Source of the DNA: a virus
Virus record (IMG/VR): IMGVR_UViG_3300042520_003434
Location: 1-40,800 of that record
Direction: 5' to 3' (one strand)
DNA length: 40,800 nt
This document shows positions 5,046 through 17,310 of this stretch, piece after piece. Under the pieces are notes generated by a model. The model was not told the origin of the DNA. It was given only the letters and a program-made list of their open reading frames with translations, and did no database searches. Made by a program: the position numbers and the translations under genes. Position 1 is the first letter of the stretch, and each line of letters opens with the position of its first letter.

Positions 5046-5941
5046 ATACGTTAACAAACGAATCGGTTTTAGAAAACGAGCAAATACTTCGAGGAATTGA
5101 AGCGAGACAGCAAAGTTTGGGCAGGCTTTCTTCGTATTTGTCTGAACTTGAAAGCCAATTAGCTTTAATTTTTGCAGCTTCTCCTGACATTATAGTTTTT
5201 TTAGACGAAAATTCGAACATTATAAGAATAAGTGATGCTGCTTATACTCTGCTTGGTTATAAACGAGAAGAAATGACAGGAAAGTGTTTGTGGGATTTTC
5301 TTTCTATCGCCGACGTAGAGCAAGCTAAACAACATCTAACTGACGTCAAGGAACAAAAATTTATTTCTTTTGAAGCTCGGCGTTATTTGATCAACTATTG
5401 GGTAGCAAAAAATGGAACATTGGTAAAGTTGGCTTGGAGATTTTCACTATACGACGAAAGAGAAAATCAAACTATAGGAGTAGCAACTGACGTCTCCTAT
5501 TTGGGACAAAATGAACGATTAAACATCAAGCTTTTAGACCGAGCGATTAATTTGGCTACCGACGGAATTGTAATTACAGACGCTTGTAGTTCTGACAATT
5601 CAATCGTTTATGTTAATCCTGCTTTTGAGAAAATTACAGGATACGAAAAACAAGAAATAATAGGAAAAAATTGTAGGTTTTTGCAGTCTGAAAATTGTAT
5701 TCATTCTAGAGCATTAAATGTGTTAAGAAAGTGTGTGCAATCTTTTCAAGGGTGTAGTGTTTTATTAGAAAATAAACGTAAAGACGGTTCTCTTTTTTAT
5801 AACCACTTAACTATCTCTACGGTAGTAGAAAATGGAATAACGACAAATTTTATCGGTATCTCTCAAGACGTGACAGATAAAATAGGAGTTGATTTTGAGT
5901 GGTCCCCAAATACAGAAAGAGGTTTTGTAGCAATACTCTAG
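5042..5941 (+). CDS. PAS-LOV protein: probable blue-light sensor without effector domain
   Basis: A 299-aa soluble protein. Order: N-terminal coiled coil (about 8-40), PAS domain (about 40-155), second PAS with a LOV signature (about 165-280), short tail. The LOV domain has GKNCRFLQ at 208-215, where Cys211 would form the flavin-cysteine adduct in blue light. Other flavin contacts are Asn210, Arg212, Gln215, Asn244 (ENKRKDG) and Asn254 (FYNHL). It aligns well with B. subtilis YtvA LOV by memory. One key residue differs: the Gln that flips on illumination (GIQ in YtvA) is Ser274 (GISQD). No kinase, GGDEF, STAS or DNA-binding domain follows. ATG overlaps the endolysin stop (ATGA), so expression is coupled to lysis genes. 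The family call is firm; photochemistry and role are inference. Confidence 0.88.
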   Translation: MNTLTNESVLENEQILRGIEARQQSLGRLSSYLSELESQLALIFAASPDIIVFLDENSNIIRISDAAYTLLGYKREEMTGKCLWDFLSIADVEQAKQHLTDVKEQKFISFEARRYLINYWVAKNGTLVKLAWRFSLYDERENQTIGVATDVSYLGQNERLNIKLLDRAINLATDGIVITDACSSDNSIVYVNPAFEKITGYEKQEIIGKNCRFLQSENCIHSRALNVLRKCVQSFQGCSVLLENKRKDGSLFYNHLTISTVVENGITTNFIGISQDVTDKIGVDFEWSPNTERGFVAIL

Positions 5942-5943
5942 CC

Positions 5944-6351
5944 ATGAACGAAAACTTTAATACAAAAAAAATTCCCAATCAATATGATGGAAATGGCTGG
6001 TCAAAATATCAACTAATGGTTCTTCAGCAATTAGATGATCACAATAAATTGCTTCAAAATTTTAATAAGGAAATTAACGATATTAAACAAACCAACGCAA
6101 TATCAGAAACTGAATTAAAAATGTGGCGAGCTCAAATAATGAAATCTTTAGAAAAAATTGACGAGAAGATGGATTTTATTTTTTATGAGGAAAACGGAGT
6201 AACAAAAAGGTTAAATGTTGTTGAAAATATTATTAATGTGGAAGAAAAATCTCAAACAAAAATTAAAGCTGTCTGGACGTTGTATGCGGCAATTTTAATG
6301 TTTTTAGCCAATGTTGCTCTGCAAATTTGGGAAATTGTATTACGTTCTTAA
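5944..6351 (+). CDS. coiled-coil protein with C-terminal TM anchor
   Basis: A 135-aa protein. Residues 15-100 are charged and helical with heptad-like Leu/Ile spacing, and residues about 105-130 form one TM helix (WTLYAAILMFLANVALQIW). The shape recalls XhlA-type haemolysin/holin-accessory proteins of phage lysis modules. It starts two bases after the LOV gene stop and closes the cassette that begins at 3290. It could be a partner that carries a PAS-LOV signal to the membrane, but that is speculation. The ATG at 5944 is used; an upstream in-frame ATG lies inside the LOV gene. Confidence 0.65.
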   Translation: MNENFNTKKIPNQYDGNGWSKYQLMVLQQLDDHNKLLQNFNKEINDIKQTNAISETELKMWRAQIMKSLEKIDEKMDFIFYEENGVTKRLNVVENIINVEEKSQTKIKAVWTLYAAILMFLANVALQIWEIVLRS

Positions 6352-6382
6352 AAAAAAATACGTAGTGAGTTTAAATATTTTG

Positions 6383-6410
6383 TTGTGGTGTCCAAAATAA
6401 CTAGTATAAT
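6383..6410 (+). promoter_or_regulatory. sigma70-like promoter, N16 spacer
   Basis: TTGTGG at 6383-6388 and consensus TATAAT at 6405-6410, 16 bp apart, 21 nt before the ATG at 6432. It lies in the gap after the lysis cassette. Confidence 0.7.
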
Positions 6411-6431
6411 AGTATATGAATAATAAATCAT

Positions 6432-7280
6432 ATGCAAACACTAACACTACAAGAAGCAATAGCCAAAGTACCTGCAATTGGAGCAACAGAAGCTTCAGAA
6501 CGAGTTTCTGATAGTTATCAATTCGTATCCACTCGCAATATTCTCGAACGGGTAATGGATGATGGTTGGCTAATTACAAACGCAATGGCTCAAAATAGGT
6601 CTCTTTACTCCCAACACCGAGTAACTTTAGTTCACCAAAGCAATCTTGATATTGCTCAAACCGACACGTTGGAATATATTCCTCGAATTGAGCTATTTAA
6701 TTCCCACAATCGAACAAAGCGGTTGATGTTCGCAATTGGGTTGTTTCGCTTTCTCTGCGAAAACGGTTTGATTGTAGCATCTGGTCCTGCTGAAACCATT
6801 CGCACCAAGCATCGTTTTTCGGATGAACGTCTTAGTGACATCATGGAACTCGTTGCCGAAATCTCGGGTAAATTTCCTTCGATTAATCAAAAAGTAAACG
6901 ATTTTAAGACTCGGGAAATGACAGAGCAAGAACAATTTTCTTTTGCTGAATATGCAATTAAAGGACGGTTTAGTTATCGTCCAGCCATGCCTAAGCGTTT
7001 TCGAGATACAGATCGCACAGTAGAAAAATTACTTGGAAGTAGGCGAGAAGAAGATAACGGAAATTCCACTTGGCAAGTATTCAACCGAGTACAAGAAAAT
7101 CTAATTACTGGAATTGAAGGATTTACACGGCCTATCCGTGGATATTCTGACTCAATTCGTGTAAATCAATTGCTGTGGAAGGGAGCAGAAATGTCGCTCG
7201 AATTTAACAACGACACGTTCAATAAACAACTAATGGAACTTCTTATTAAAGACGGCAAGAAAGCAAAAATTTCAGCTTAA
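6432..7280 (+). CDS. DUF932-like phage protein
   Basis: A 282-aa protein resembling DUF932, a family widespread in phages and plasmids whose function is unknown. Supporting stretches are the region around SQHRVTLVH, the RIELFNSHNRTKRLMFAIGLFRFLCENGLIV segment (about 84-114; Asn-Ser then a helix with Cys-Asn/Glu-Asn-Gly as in the family) and the later WQVFNRVQENL. It has its own TATAAT promoter and is followed by a hairpin terminator, so it is a single-gene transcript, which hints at strong early expression. No membrane or export signal. Confidence 0.75.
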   Translation: MQTLTLQEAIAKVPAIGATEASERVSDSYQFVSTRNILERVMDDGWLITNAMAQNRSLYSQHRVTLVHQSNLDIAQTDTLEYIPRIELFNSHNRTKRLMFAIGLFRFLCENGLIVASGPAETIRTKHRFSDERLSDIMELVAEISGKFPSINQKVNDFKTREMTEQEQFSFAEYAIKGRFSYRPAMPKRFRDTDRTVEKLLGSRREEDNGNSTWQVFNRVQENLITGIEGFTRPIRGYSDSIRVNQLLWKGAEMSLEFNNDTFNKQLMELLIKDGKKAKISA

Positions 7281-13204: not shown

Positions 13205-13675
13205 ATGGGTGGCAAATATACTTCCACGAAGATTATCGAATTAGGCTCCTGTGCTTTCCGTCAACCAAACGCTGCGTTTGATAGGAACTGCGCAGGAATT
13301 AACTCTAAAAGATGTAGCTTTGTGCACGGATATAAACTTCAAGCAAAGTTTTGGTTTGAGTGTAGCGAATTGGATAACAAAAATTGGGTGGTTGATTTTG
13401 GAGGACTCGGAAATTTAAAATTAGTATTGCAATACCAGTTTGATCATACGCTAACAATAGATAAGACTGATCCTTTGCTTCCTTTGTTCGAGGAATTGCA
13501 CAAACAAGGAGGTTGTGATCTCCGAGTAATGGATGGAGTGGGCATTGAAAAGGTTGCTGAATGGTGTTTTAAAGTAGCTAGTCAGCACATACAAGAAATT
13601 ACAAATAAGCGCTGTTGGGTTTCTAAGGTTGAAGTATGGGAACATAACGCCAATAGTGCAATCTACACAGAATAA
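13205..13675 (+). CDS. queD: QueD-like 6-carboxytetrahydropterin synthase, altered zinc site
   Basis: QueD turns dihydroneopterin triphosphate into 6-carboxy-tetrahydropterin, the substrate of QueE, on the way to preQ0. The 156-aa protein keeps the family outline: RCSFVHGY (Cys37 matches the catalytic Cys, His41 a zinc ligand), WVVDFGGL at 61-68, FDHTL (Asp80-His81) and VEVWEHNA (Glu146). Two of three zinc His are not in place by alignment with E. coli QueD: AAH reads CAF (Phe18) and HGH reads HGY (Tyr43). It is next to queE. Either zinc is bound differently or activity has changed. Confidence 0.78.
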   Translation: MGGKYTSTKIIELGSCAFRQPNAAFDRNCAGINSKRCSFVHGYKLQAKFWFECSELDNKNWVVDFGGLGNLKLVLQYQFDHTLTIDKTDPLLPLFEELHKQGGCDLRVMDGVGIEKVAEWCFKVASQHIQEITNKRCWVSKVEVWEHNANSAIYTE

Positions 13676-13680
13676 CATTT

Positions 13681-14445
13681 ATGAATAACATTGACATAGA
13701 AAAAGAAACCTTATTTTTATCAGACGATAAAGTATTTTACACTTTGGAAGGAGAGGGAGAGTATATAGGCCAACCTTCGGTGTTTATGAGATTATCAATG
13801 TGCAACCTTACCTGTAAAGGATTTGCTTCACCTGATAGTCCAAATGGATGTGATTCTTTTGTTTCGTGGTCTGTAAAAAACAAAATGACTTTTAAAGAAA
13901 TTTTTGATTACATGGAAGATAAAAACTACGTTGAGCATCTTAAAAATCGAGCCATTTTAAAGATTACCGGAGGAGAACCAATCATACAAGAAAAACAATT
14001 GCTCAAGTTTCTTGAGTGTTTTGTTGGCCGTTATAATTTTGTGCCTAGAATAGACTTTGAGACGAACGCTACTCTTACTCCGAGTGAAGAATGGGTCACC
14101 AAATTTAGTGCAACATTCACAACTTCTCCCAAACTGACTACAAACGGAGACCCAGAGGAAAAAACATACAAACCAGAAACGTTGAGGTGGCATGTCGACC
14201 ATAACTCAGGATTTAAATTTGTAATTTCATCCGATCGAGACATAGAAGAAATATGGAGAAAGTACGTTGAAGATTATGAATGTATTAATGTGCCTTTACA
14301 ACGAATTTGGTTTATGCCTTGCTGTGGTTCTAGAAACGAACATATTGAAAAAGCTCAGTCTGTGGCTGAATATGCCAAATCAATGCATGTTAATTTTAGT
14401 CCAAGAATGCATCTGTTAATCTGGGACATGGCTTTAAAGGTTTGA
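13681..14445 (+). CDS. queE: QueE-like 7-carboxy-7-deazaguanine synthase (radical SAM)
   Basis: Radical SAM enzyme that contracts the pterin ring to 7-carboxy-7-deazaguanine, the step after QueD. 254 aa. GEGEYIGQPSVFMRL at 24-38 is the family N-terminus, and the 4Fe-4S cysteines are Cys41, Cys45 and Cys57 (CX3CX11C, not the usual CX3CX2C; QueE variants with other spacing are known). KITGGEP at about 97-103 binds SAM, and the FETNAT stretch follows. T4-like phages use this pathway to place 7-deazaguanines in DNA against restriction. QueC and an insertase are not in the window. Confidence 0.88.
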   Translation: MNNIDIEKETLFLSDDKVFYTLEGEGEYIGQPSVFMRLSMCNLTCKGFASPDSPNGCDSFVSWSVKNKMTFKEIFDYMEDKNYVEHLKNRAILKITGGEPIIQEKQLLKFLECFVGRYNFVPRIDFETNATLTPSEEWVTKFSATFTTSPKLTTNGDPEEKTYKPETLRWHVDHNSGFKFVISSDRDIEEIWRKYVEDYECINVPLQRIWFMPCCGSRNEHIEKAQSVAEYAKSMHVNFSPRMHLLIWDMALKV

Positions 14446-15119: not shown

Positions 15120-15518
15120 CCGCATTAAAAACTTTTTATATTGTTGCTGAGGTTTGATTTGTTTTAAGCTGCTTTGAGCTGCAGCTTCTAAATCTGGGGA
15201 ATTCATATCCAGTGCTCCGCAATATGGAAAAGGAAGTTGATCCATAATTTTATTAAATTGATATTTAATAAAAGACTCTACGTTTTTATTTCTTGGCTTT
15301 GTCCCAAAGCACACTACTTTAGGATAAGGACTCGAAGTTGTTTTATATTGATTTTCTATAGCTCGAATACAATAACAAGCGATAAGTTTCTTTCCGTCAT
15401 TCGAATTTATTGAAATGTTGAATTTGTTGGCAAATTTTAATGCAGTTTTAATTCCGTCTTCTAAAGACGGATATGCATCTAATACACAAACTCTGGATTT
15501 AGGAAATGTTTTTGTCAT
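15096..15518 (-). CDS. hypothetical protein, 140 aa
   Basis: Starts MTKTFPKSRVCVLDAYPSLEDG at the ATG read from 15518; an in-frame ATG 27 nt upstream lies further inside the upstream gene. Basic and soluble, with segments KLIACYCIRAIEN and KVVCFGTKPRNK that suggest an alpha/beta fold. The C-terminus ends with a basic helix (YKKFLMRLNLRNVN). No family recognised. It overlaps the GIY-YIG gene stop by 20 bp and the convergent NTPase gene by 24 bp. Confidence 0.65.
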   Translation of the reverse strand: MTKTFPKSRVCVLDAYPSLEDGIKTALKFANKFNISINSNDGKKLIACYCIRAIENQYKTTSSPYPKVVCFGTKPRNKNVESFIKYQFNKIMDQLPFPYCGALDMNSPDLEAAAQSSLKQIKPQQQYKKFLMRLNLRNVN

Positions 15519-15930
15519 TTTTAAAAGCTTTGGGTGGGCGACCAATTCTTACATTTAAGATTCCGTTGTAAAATTGTTCGTTGAGTATAACATCGAATTC
15601 GATTTGTTTTTTTATTTCTTTATACCCCAATTCCCATTTAGATCCACACCATTCTAAAATAAAAAAAGTAAAGTTTTCTTTTCCATATTTTATAATATCT
15701 TCGTTTAGCTCTTTCGAAGAACCGGTATAGGTTTTCCAGTCTGATTCTTTTATTTGTATTCTTTTGCGTTTTTTACCTTTTAATGGATTCCGTTTTGTTT
15801 TTGATACGCATTGTTTTTTTCCAATATATTGTCTACCATTAATGGTATTCTGAATAATGTAAATAAAACCAAAAGGATTCTCAGGAAAAATGTTGGTTTT
15901 GTCTTTTATTTGCCAGTGACCTAAATCCAT
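15499..15930 (-). CDS. GIY-YIG nuclease
   Basis: A 143-aa protein with the GIY-YIG core: GFIYIIQNTINGRQYIGKKQ at 21-40 (strands carrying Tyr24 and Tyr35-Ile-Gly37), then a basic loop (NPLKGKKRKRIQIK) and the helix region ELNEDIIKYGKENF. The family cuts DNA; phage members include homing (Seg/I-TevI-like) and host-DNA-degrading (DenA-like) enzymes. The short C-terminus has no DNA-binding repeats, which fits a freestanding homing or repair nuclease. It lies three bases after the late gene at 15934, so the two may share a transcript. Confidence 0.82.
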   Translation of the reverse strand: MDLGHWQIKDKTNIFPENPFGFIYIIQNTINGRQYIGKKQCVSKTKRNPLKGKKRKRIQIKESDWKTYTGSSKELNEDIIKYGKENFTFFILEWCGSKWELGYKEIKKQIEFDVILNEQFYNGILNVRIGRPPKAFKNDKNIS

Positions 15931-15933
15931 AAA

Positions 15934-16482
15934 TTATGATTTGTTCCTTTTCTTTTTTCTTCTTTTTCTCTTAGATTTCATTCCTGGTCTTGTTATTACT
16001 CCTCCGTAAATGGAATTGGGAATTCTTGCATCTCCTGGAGCGTAGTTATCTCCACTATATACAGCTGCTGTTGAGACTACCCCTCCTCCAAAAACTGATT
16101 CAGCTCCACCTGAAACGCTACTTTCAGAAACATTAAATCTATTTGTTTGTTGTTGTTTTCCATAATTTTTGACAACTCGGGCTCCTTTTATTGCTGTTTT
16201 TTTATAATGTTTTAACTTAATAAGTTTAATCAAATCAGCAAAAGGTATTAGAGAGATGGCTGAAATGCCTGCGTTTATTATGTGCTTTTTTCTTTCGTCT
16301 GTTTCTTTTGAGAAAGCGGCTCGTAAAGTTGAAATAAGCGTGTTAATTGCGTCAGCTGCTGTGCCAATCGTTGGTTCGAAACCTATAACATCCAATGCTG
16401 CTTGAACTTTGTCGATCATTGATTGCTTTTGCAAAACAGCTTGTTCCGTTAGTGTTGTTTCTACTAATTTGGAAAATTCCAT
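15934..16482 (-). CDS. capsid-targeted protein with pretoxin-like hydrophobic hairpin and basic tail
   Basis: A 182-aa protein in three parts. Leader MEFSKLVETTLTE (cleavage-type Leu-Thr-Glu at 11-13). Residues about 25-88 read ALDVIGFEPTIGTAADAINT, then INAGISAISLIPFADLIKLI: the paired Gly/Pro-rich hydrophobic repeats resemble pretoxin (PT-TG-like) segments of polymorphic toxins and may insert in a membrane. After a Gly/Ser-rich stretch, the last 14 residues are almost all Lys/Arg (KSKRKRRKKKRNKS), fit to bind packaged DNA. A late box lies exactly 5 nt before the ATG. It is probably an internal virion protein ejected on infection; the membrane role is inference. Confidence 0.72.
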   Translation of the reverse strand: MEFSKLVETTLTEQAVLQKQSMIDKVQAALDVIGFEPTIGTAADAINTLISTLRAAFSKETDERKKHIINAGISAISLIPFADLIKLIKLKHYKKTAIKGARVVKNYGKQQQTNRFNVSESSVSGGAESVFGGGVVSTAAVYSGDNYAPGDARIPNSIYGGVITRPGMKSKRKRRKKKRNKS

Positions 16483-16487
16483 TCAGA

Positions 16488-16495
16488 TATTTATT
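16488..16495 (-). promoter_or_regulatory. late promoter box, AATAAATA
   Basis: On the minus strand AATAAATA is followed by CTGAA (5 nt) and the ATG at 16482. Confidence 0.65.
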
Positions 16496-16828
16496 CTAAA
16501 TAAGTTGACTTTTGTAATAAATAAACGATATTACAAAAGTCGCTGTTAGAACTAGCCAGAGCGCATTTGCGCGGGTCTCCGTTGGGAGATAGATAAACAG
16601 GAATCAGCGAATAATAAATTAAAAACATTTCTCGAAGTGCACTTTATGTGTGACCGTTGTTTGGCATTCGCCAGGACCGCTCAAGCCAGCCCTTATAGGA
16701 CAACCGAGGGGGCATATTAATTTTTGATTTTTTGAAGCTTGTTAACCCGACTGAGACTCGTTTTATACGGAGTATTAAGACTGGAGGTTTTCCCTATACA
16801 AAGGGGGAACCTCCCTCCTTCAATCTGT
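16496..16828 (+). other. structured non-coding region between divergent genes (ncRNA or origin candidate)
   Basis: About 330 bp without a credible gene, more GC-rich than its neighbours. Hairpins: GACTTTTGTAATA (16507-16519) with its exact complement at 16529-16541; GCGC-ATTT-GCGC (16561-16572); TCTCC-GTTG-GGAGA (16576-16589); an outer CGCTG/CAGCG pair (16541-16545 with 16605-16609) closing these into one domain; TGGC-ATTC-GCCA near 16662-16673; and GGAGGTTTTCCC (16783-16794) with GGGGGAACCTCC (16803-16814), 12 bp including two G-U. No T run marks a normal terminator. Strand of any RNA is not known; plus is given for reference. It could be a structured RNA, an origin, or leader elements. Confidence 0.55.
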
Positions 16829-16856
16829 TTGGCCGGAATATAAGACTATATATAAA
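16829..16856 (+). promoter_or_regulatory. sigma70-like promoter, N16 spacer
   Basis: TTGGCC at 16829-16834 and TATAAA at 16851-16856, 16 bp apart, 40 nt before uvsY. Unlike the others it leaves a real leader, and the leader holds AAAGGA (16881-16886), a purine-rich possible ribosome site about 10 nt before ATG. Confidence 0.55.
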
Positions 16857-16896
16857 TGGGCGTAGATTTGTTTAAAAAAGAAAGGATAATGTTGGT

Positions 16897-17310
16897 ATGT
16901 CAGATTCTAATGTTTCAAATTTGCTAACTGAATATTACAATAAAATAGAAAAATTTTTGCAGTTTGATGAGTTAAATTTAAAAGATTCTCAAATGTCGTT
17001 ACCCGTCGTAAGACATTACTGGGTAGGGCGATTGATGTTTCACAAACAACAAATAAACAAACTAAAACAAGCTAAAGAAAAAGCCACAAAAGTAATTAAA
17101 CAGAGAATTGAACATGAAACTCCTGTTTCATTAACAGCAAAAACTATAAATGAATCAATCGCAAAGAACGAGATTATTCTAAAAATAGACGAAGACGTTG
17201 CTAATCATGAATTACTCGTCGAATTTCTAACAAAAGTCGAATCTAACTTTCGAGACACTCAGTACGGCATGAACAACCTAACAAAAATTATAACATTAGA
17301 AACAACGTAA
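16897..17310 (+). CDS. uvsY: UvsY-like recombination mediator
   Basis: UvsY loads UvsX recombinase on gp32-coated single-stranded DNA. This protein is 137 aa, exactly the length of T4 UvsY. It is helical, with a basic middle (KQQINKLKQAKEKATKVIKQR, about 50-70) and a motif-rich C-terminal helix. Sequence identity to T4 UvsY is low by eye. The strongest evidence is position: it is coupled (TAATG) to uvsW, as uvsY and uvsW are neighbours in T4, and UvsX, gp32 and gp41 are in the same window. Confidence 0.75.
   Translation: MSDSNVSNLLTEYYNKIEKFLQFDELNLKDSQMSLPVVRHYWVGRLMFHKQQINKLKQAKEKATKVIKQRIEHETPVSLTAKTINESIAKNEIILKIDEDVANHELLVEFLTKVESNFRDTQYGMNNLTKIITLETT

Follow-up and report, generated by a model that had tools for sequence, protein, structure and literature searches.

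The spacer upstream of the uvsY homologue in an uncultivated T4-like phage holds a probable gene for a structured non-coding RNA. The window studied here is the whole stretch of 40,800 nucleotides, positions 1 to 40,800 of IMG/VR record IMGVR_UViG_3300042520_003434, and the RNA gene occupies 16540-16838 on its plus strand, as defined by a 30-sequence alignment, by pair counts and by profile matches in all informative relatives. We consider it probable, although far from settled, that this is an independent structured RNA gene of about 300 nt that founds a new family in one uncultivated T4-like clade and acts in trans as a scaffold or decoy. Comparison of the sequences shows its strand, its fold, its strong conservation, its presence as one copy per contig and its conserved position.

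The original prediction described a GC-raised region with no credible gene, and both parts of that description hold. The stretch 16483-16896 contains no credible protein gene, and the lengths of the RNA in relatives are not restricted to multiples of three. The G+C content is 45.2% at 16540-16838 versus 33.9% for the whole window, a level reached by only about 3% of equal-sized windows. On the left lies a divergent minus-strand gene without assigned function (15934-16482) that is conserved in the clade, and the right neighbour in most relatives is the uvsY homologue (here 16897-17310, plus strand; PHROG 231, E 1e-4). Downstream of uvsY follow genes for a UvsW-like helicase, a late sigma factor (gp55-like) and an SbcD/gp47-like nuclease, so that the predicted uvsY-uvsW-55-47 neighbourhood was also correctly named. 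Elsewhere in the window, QueD- and QueE-like genes (13205-14445) suggest 7-deazaguanine DNA modification, and positions 1-402 hold a phage-encoded tmRNA truncated by the window start.

Relatives of the element were found solely among uncultivated phages. No match to the region was returned by blastn against 50,697 phage records or by a plasmid search, and two scans of GTDB species genomes gave nothing confirmed by profile; five GTDB pattern matches, unconfirmed in this way, are taken as chance. In IMG/VR, a protein search brought up relatives of uvsW with 67% identity, and their intergenic DNA could be aligned from end to end; DNA patterns located the element in about 35 contigs. A profile search of the fetched loci recovered the known members plus several further ones, with E-values down to 1e-107 and no intermediate cases; one pattern match (L015) was rejected as a family member, being a chance occurrence within a large protein gene. 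The 30 distinct copies all lie in T4-like phage contigs, always near uvsY-uvsW, and each of the 8 long family records has one copy. Mean identity to the window copy is 81% for the RNA, 68% for uvsY DNA and 66% for uvsW DNA. A search of the published literature in an open library found no description of the RNA.

By uvsW, the loci that carry the RNA group into a single clade (support 1.0). The RNA is missing from two further members of this clade, whose contigs begin too late to include its position. The sister clade, with uvsW 46-52% identical, has no RNA at the same locus or elsewhere in the contigs searched; its gene order, including uvsY, is the same, the spacer measuring no more than about 190 nt in most loci and being filled by a small ORF in a few. 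The RNA was thus either gained in the former clade or lost in the latter. One family member (L010) is carried by a contig of 217,182 bp (G013) in which a repeat links both contig ends, which suggests a complete genome. This 217-kb relative has a whole tmRNA, whose predicted tag, AEDNTSDLLAEAEYIFNNADEFLAGVEEYELAA, is unusually long. The hexamer TTGACA is rarer than expected in this contig (131 occurrences, where about 200 would be expected), as though it were avoided except in promoters.

The plus strand can be assigned as the RNA strand because the alignment contains 206 G-U cells against 15 A-C cells. The predicted fold of this strand, at -119.6 kcal/mol, is more stable than that of shuffled sequences (-97.1 +/- 5.9; z -3.8, with none of 100 shuffles as stable), and the minus strand reaches z -2.6 in the same kind of comparison. 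Just upstream, at 16505-16532 on the plus strand, is a promoter-like element, TTGACT-N16-GATATT, with a predicted RNA start at about 16539-16540. Its hexamers match 9 of 12 consensus positions, a score that chance alone would also give in this region. Of the 30 sequences, 26 have an exact TTGAC box, and the box keeps a constant distance to the first helix, P1, which places the 5' end of the RNA near 16540; the -10-like hexamer, 16 bases downstream, is the weaker of the two. A 13-bp perfect stem, to which attention had been drawn at the outset, is indeed present in the window as an inverted repeat (16507-16519/16529-16541, spanning 16507-16541) with a stability of -13.7 kcal/mol. It is not conserved: apart from two relatives that have other hairpins of their own, none reaches -7 kcal/mol. 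The stem is explained by its position over the promoter, outside the RNA, and by its strength in this species only.

The 3' end is uncertain and could extend to about 16875. Conservation reaches CCGGA (16833-16837), and most relatives have T-runs 30-60 nt further on, without a strong hairpin; these runs are absent from the window. No consistent strong intrinsic terminator was found downstream of the RNA, so that it may share a transcript with the next gene. The last hairpin, P9, has no U-run directly after it. A candidate middle-promoter box upstream of uvsY, GTRGAYTTTTT, occurs at only two sites in the 217-kb relative, where 0-2 are expected, and was rejected as a genome-wide box.

The secondary structure model was drawn from covarying columns and counted on an alignment of 30 distinct sequences (A3). 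It has 56 pairs, distributed over eleven helices that include one pseudoknot. Standard pairs occupy 96.9% of cells across the 30 sequences, and changes on both sides that keep pairing occur in 24 of the 56 pairs, for a total of 111 cells. Shuffled alignments gave 10.9 pairs and 26.0 cells with two-sided changes, none of 500 reaching the observed values, and sliding the partners by 1-3 columns lowered pairing to only 38-53%. The model was derived from the same sequences on which it was tested and is therefore somewhat favoured, but the gap and the two-sided changes far exceed this bias. Covariation and conservation across 30 homologues, two of the checks on which the original prediction had been staked, were thus both present.

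All helices lie on the plus strand, and the overall fold consists of a closed 5' domain (P1-P3), a pseudoknotted central domain (P4-P8) and a 3' hairpin (P9). The 5' domain (16540-16610) is closed by P1 (16540-16545/16605-16610), with two-sided changes in 3 of 6 pairs, and encloses P2 (16555-16557/16574-16576; 2 of 3 pairs), the inner hairpin of P2 (16561-16562/16571-16572) and P3 (16577-16580/16585-16588; 4 of 4 pairs). The covariation of P1 and of the hairpins inside it bears out the multi-hairpin domain that had been proposed at 16541-16609. In the central domain, compensatory changes are found in 3 of 5 pairs of hairpin P4 (16638-16642/16648-16652), 3 of 5 of hairpin P5 (16661-16665/16670-16674), 2 of 5 of P6 (16682-16686/16737-16741), which encloses P7 and P8, 3 of 5 of P7 (16689-16693/16709-16713) and 3 of 4 of P8 (about 16716-16721/16727-16732). 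The predicted pseudoknot joins GUUGU at 16656-16660 with ACAAC at 16700-16704 in the P7 loop; it is 99.3% paired, and its last pair, 16660/16700, changes from U-A to C-G in two relatives (L039 and L053), which makes its support thinner than that for the other helices. A joining segment at 16742-16767, UUAACCCGACUGAGACUCGUUUUAUA, is highly conserved in the alignment and takes part in no helix of the model. Hairpin P9 (16783-16794/16803-16814) is the 12-bp stem noted earlier at 16783-16814; it is kept in nearly all of the 30 relatives, with 92% of cells paired, but its changes are one-sided only.

P9 is flanked by two direct repeats, each composed of CGGA followed by an A/T-rich motif (X) of 7-10 nt. 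The first copy, CGGA plus X1 (GTATTAAGACT), lies at 16768-16782 and the second, CGGA plus X2 (ATATAAGACTA), at 16834-16848, both on the plus strand. The X motif varies between phages and matches between both copies within one phage: TAAGACT occurs twice in the window, CAATTAATC twice in L029, and CGAAAATTC and CGAAATTTC are the pair in L053. In a permutation test, the within-phage X1/X2 score was 13.8 versus 9.7 +/- 0.55 for permuted pairs (0 of 20,000 permutations; 18 distinct X1). Direct identity of X1 and X2 has a z of 7.5; pairing of X1 with X2 as a helix was also considered and rejected, the complementarity being no better than permutation (z 0.9). A partner for X2 was sought inside the RNA or within 180 nt, with only X2 itself returned, weakly, and the 217-kb relative has no CGGA-X copy elsewhere better than two mismatches. 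By these comparisons, both repeats evolve in concert within each phage although the RNA otherwise hardly varies, and any mechanism must account for them. As a speculative and on balance doubtful suggestion, one partner might read the paired CGGA-X repeats by a mechanism not yet described, with the pseudoknotted body as a fixed scaffold; a protein that recognises a specific RNA or DNA sequence might do the reading, or else a step that copies across P9 or hops over it.

The position of the RNA raises the question of whether it acts in cis, controlling uvsY (plus uvsW, gene 55 and gene 47) as a leader or riboswitch-like element of the same transcript. In most relatives, uvsY comes directly after the RNA in the same orientation, with a gap that is usually 60-110 nt, and a leader would fit with the lack of a clear terminator after it. 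Association with one downstream gene is not constant, however, since 6 of 29 relatives (L012, L020, L022, L025, L028 and L032) have one or more genes between the RNA and uvsY. These include methyltransferase-like genes and an IS-like insertion, with up to 2.7 kb separating the two in L032, and the RNA stays intact. Other genes are also found on its left side in L011, L017 and L027, and the presence of other genes on either side argues that the RNA behaves as its own unit. The missing U-run after P9 and the sister clade, which keeps uvsY in the same order without the RNA, also count against a leader. Leader regulation, one of the options in the original prediction, is therefore disfavoured by the intervening genes, and we regard it as unlikely. 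The IS/TnpB-like gene of L032 (reverse complement, 5877-7244) lies just 3' of the RNA, and both CGGA repeats are altered in that relative only. In L011, L012 and L017, the products of inserts adjoining the RNA start like MKNxDxLLLExAY, resembling capsid-targeting N-termini; such products are perhaps packaged proteins.

A replication origin can be proposed from the same neighbourhood. T4 oriF is ori(uvsY), and its R-loops are unwound by UvsW (PMC3016281). An oriF-like origin in the window would use a transcript R-loop, in which RNA processed by RNase H primes the leading strand, and the fold would be a preprimer like ColE1 RNA II under the control of UvsW. The parallels are that the RNA, like oriF, lies at uvsY in T4-like phages and has a promoter firing towards uvsY. 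However, oriF R-loops need no specific RNA sequence (PMC3016281), whereas selection here acts on the RNA fold. T4 oriF has a middle promoter that depends on MotA, and its A+T-rich unwinding element acts independently of sequence. The locus here has a TTGAC-type promoter and a conserved RNA fold with a G+C-raised body, followed by A+T-rich DNA. The sister clade again lacks the RNA, and the GC skew of the 217-kb relative has no turn at the RNA, although this is weak evidence. An origin of this kind accordingly seems quite improbable.

It is even harder to see the RNA as a ribozyme or as the remnant of a self-splicing element. The pseudoknotted fold, the very conserved unpaired segments and a nearby GIY-YIG nuclease gene would be in keeping with either, but searches with four family members at E values up to 10 gave no match to a ribozyme or intron model of Rfam, phages without the RNA conserve the nuclease just as well, and there is no exon context; we consider this very unlikely. 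The nuclease gene itself, SegE-like and located at 15499-15930 on the minus strand, keeps its position in nearly all relatives, whether or not they have the RNA, and may have been domesticated instead of being a mobile homing gene. The idea of an ordinary intergenic spacer with chance hairpins, which only the 13-bp stem fits, is already refuted by the covariation counts, with conservation and the profile E-values also against it.

Among known RNAs, Rfam 15 (4227 families) has no gathering-level match in the region, and searches with four members at E up to 10 gave only weak and mutually inconsistent matches (best E 0.71). The nearest in kind are GOLLD and ROOL, which are likewise phage-encoded and non-coding, with an extensive pseudoknotted fold. 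An RNA-only homo-oligomer or nanocage would be a further mark of membership in those families. The RNA here has no sequence or model match to them, and it lies at uvsY, in contrast to their location near a tRNA island; in the 217-kb relative, the RNA is at 42.6 kb and the tRNA/tmRNA island at 24.6-27.0 kb. It is also smaller, at about 300 nt versus more than 800 nt for many GOLLDs (PMC12286853). The manA and wcaG motifs are likewise structured RNAs of T4-like phages, namely cyanophages, but are located within the 5' UTRs of metabolic genes (PMC2864571), whereas the RNA described here has no fixed association with one particular downstream gene and no match to their Rfam models. The novelty is at the level of the RNA family, and the mechanism could be of a known sort.

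Of the options first raised for this region, a small RNA is strongly supported, in that the element is conserved, covarying, strand-specific and equipped with its own promoter, although it is larger than a typical small RNA. Host sigma-70-type RNA polymerase would transcribe it from the TTGAC promoter, early in infection or constitutively, a timing suggested only by the type of promoter. The transcript is predicted to fold into a compact pseudoknotted body, and the family probably acts in trans. The combination of this fold with invariant unpaired segments suggests a protein-binding or scaffold RNA, most likely a scaffold or decoy that would bind a phage or host protein or ribonucleoprotein, and this role is preferred over that of an antisense RNA or a uvsY leader. 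Several more specific candidates were tried and rejected. Antisense pairing was examined in five phages as 9-mer complementarity to the starts and bodies of genes, and no target recurred consistently. Seven proteins separate the RNA-bearing from the RNA-lacking phages, none of them evidently RNA-binding. The CCUCCUU after P9, which resembles an anti-Shine-Dalgarno sequence, is not kept in all relatives, and anti-CRISPR, retron and tmRNA readings have no supporting gene or model match.

The alignment and structure suffice to build a covariance model and to search metatranscriptomes for the transcript. T4-like phages are the best-studied large phages, and one clade of them keeps a folded RNA of 300 nt more strictly than the adjoining recombination genes, although it is absent from Rfam and from every isolated-phage record searched. 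That a lytic phage should carry so strongly constrained an RNA suggests that infection involves an RNA-based step not seen in T4 itself.
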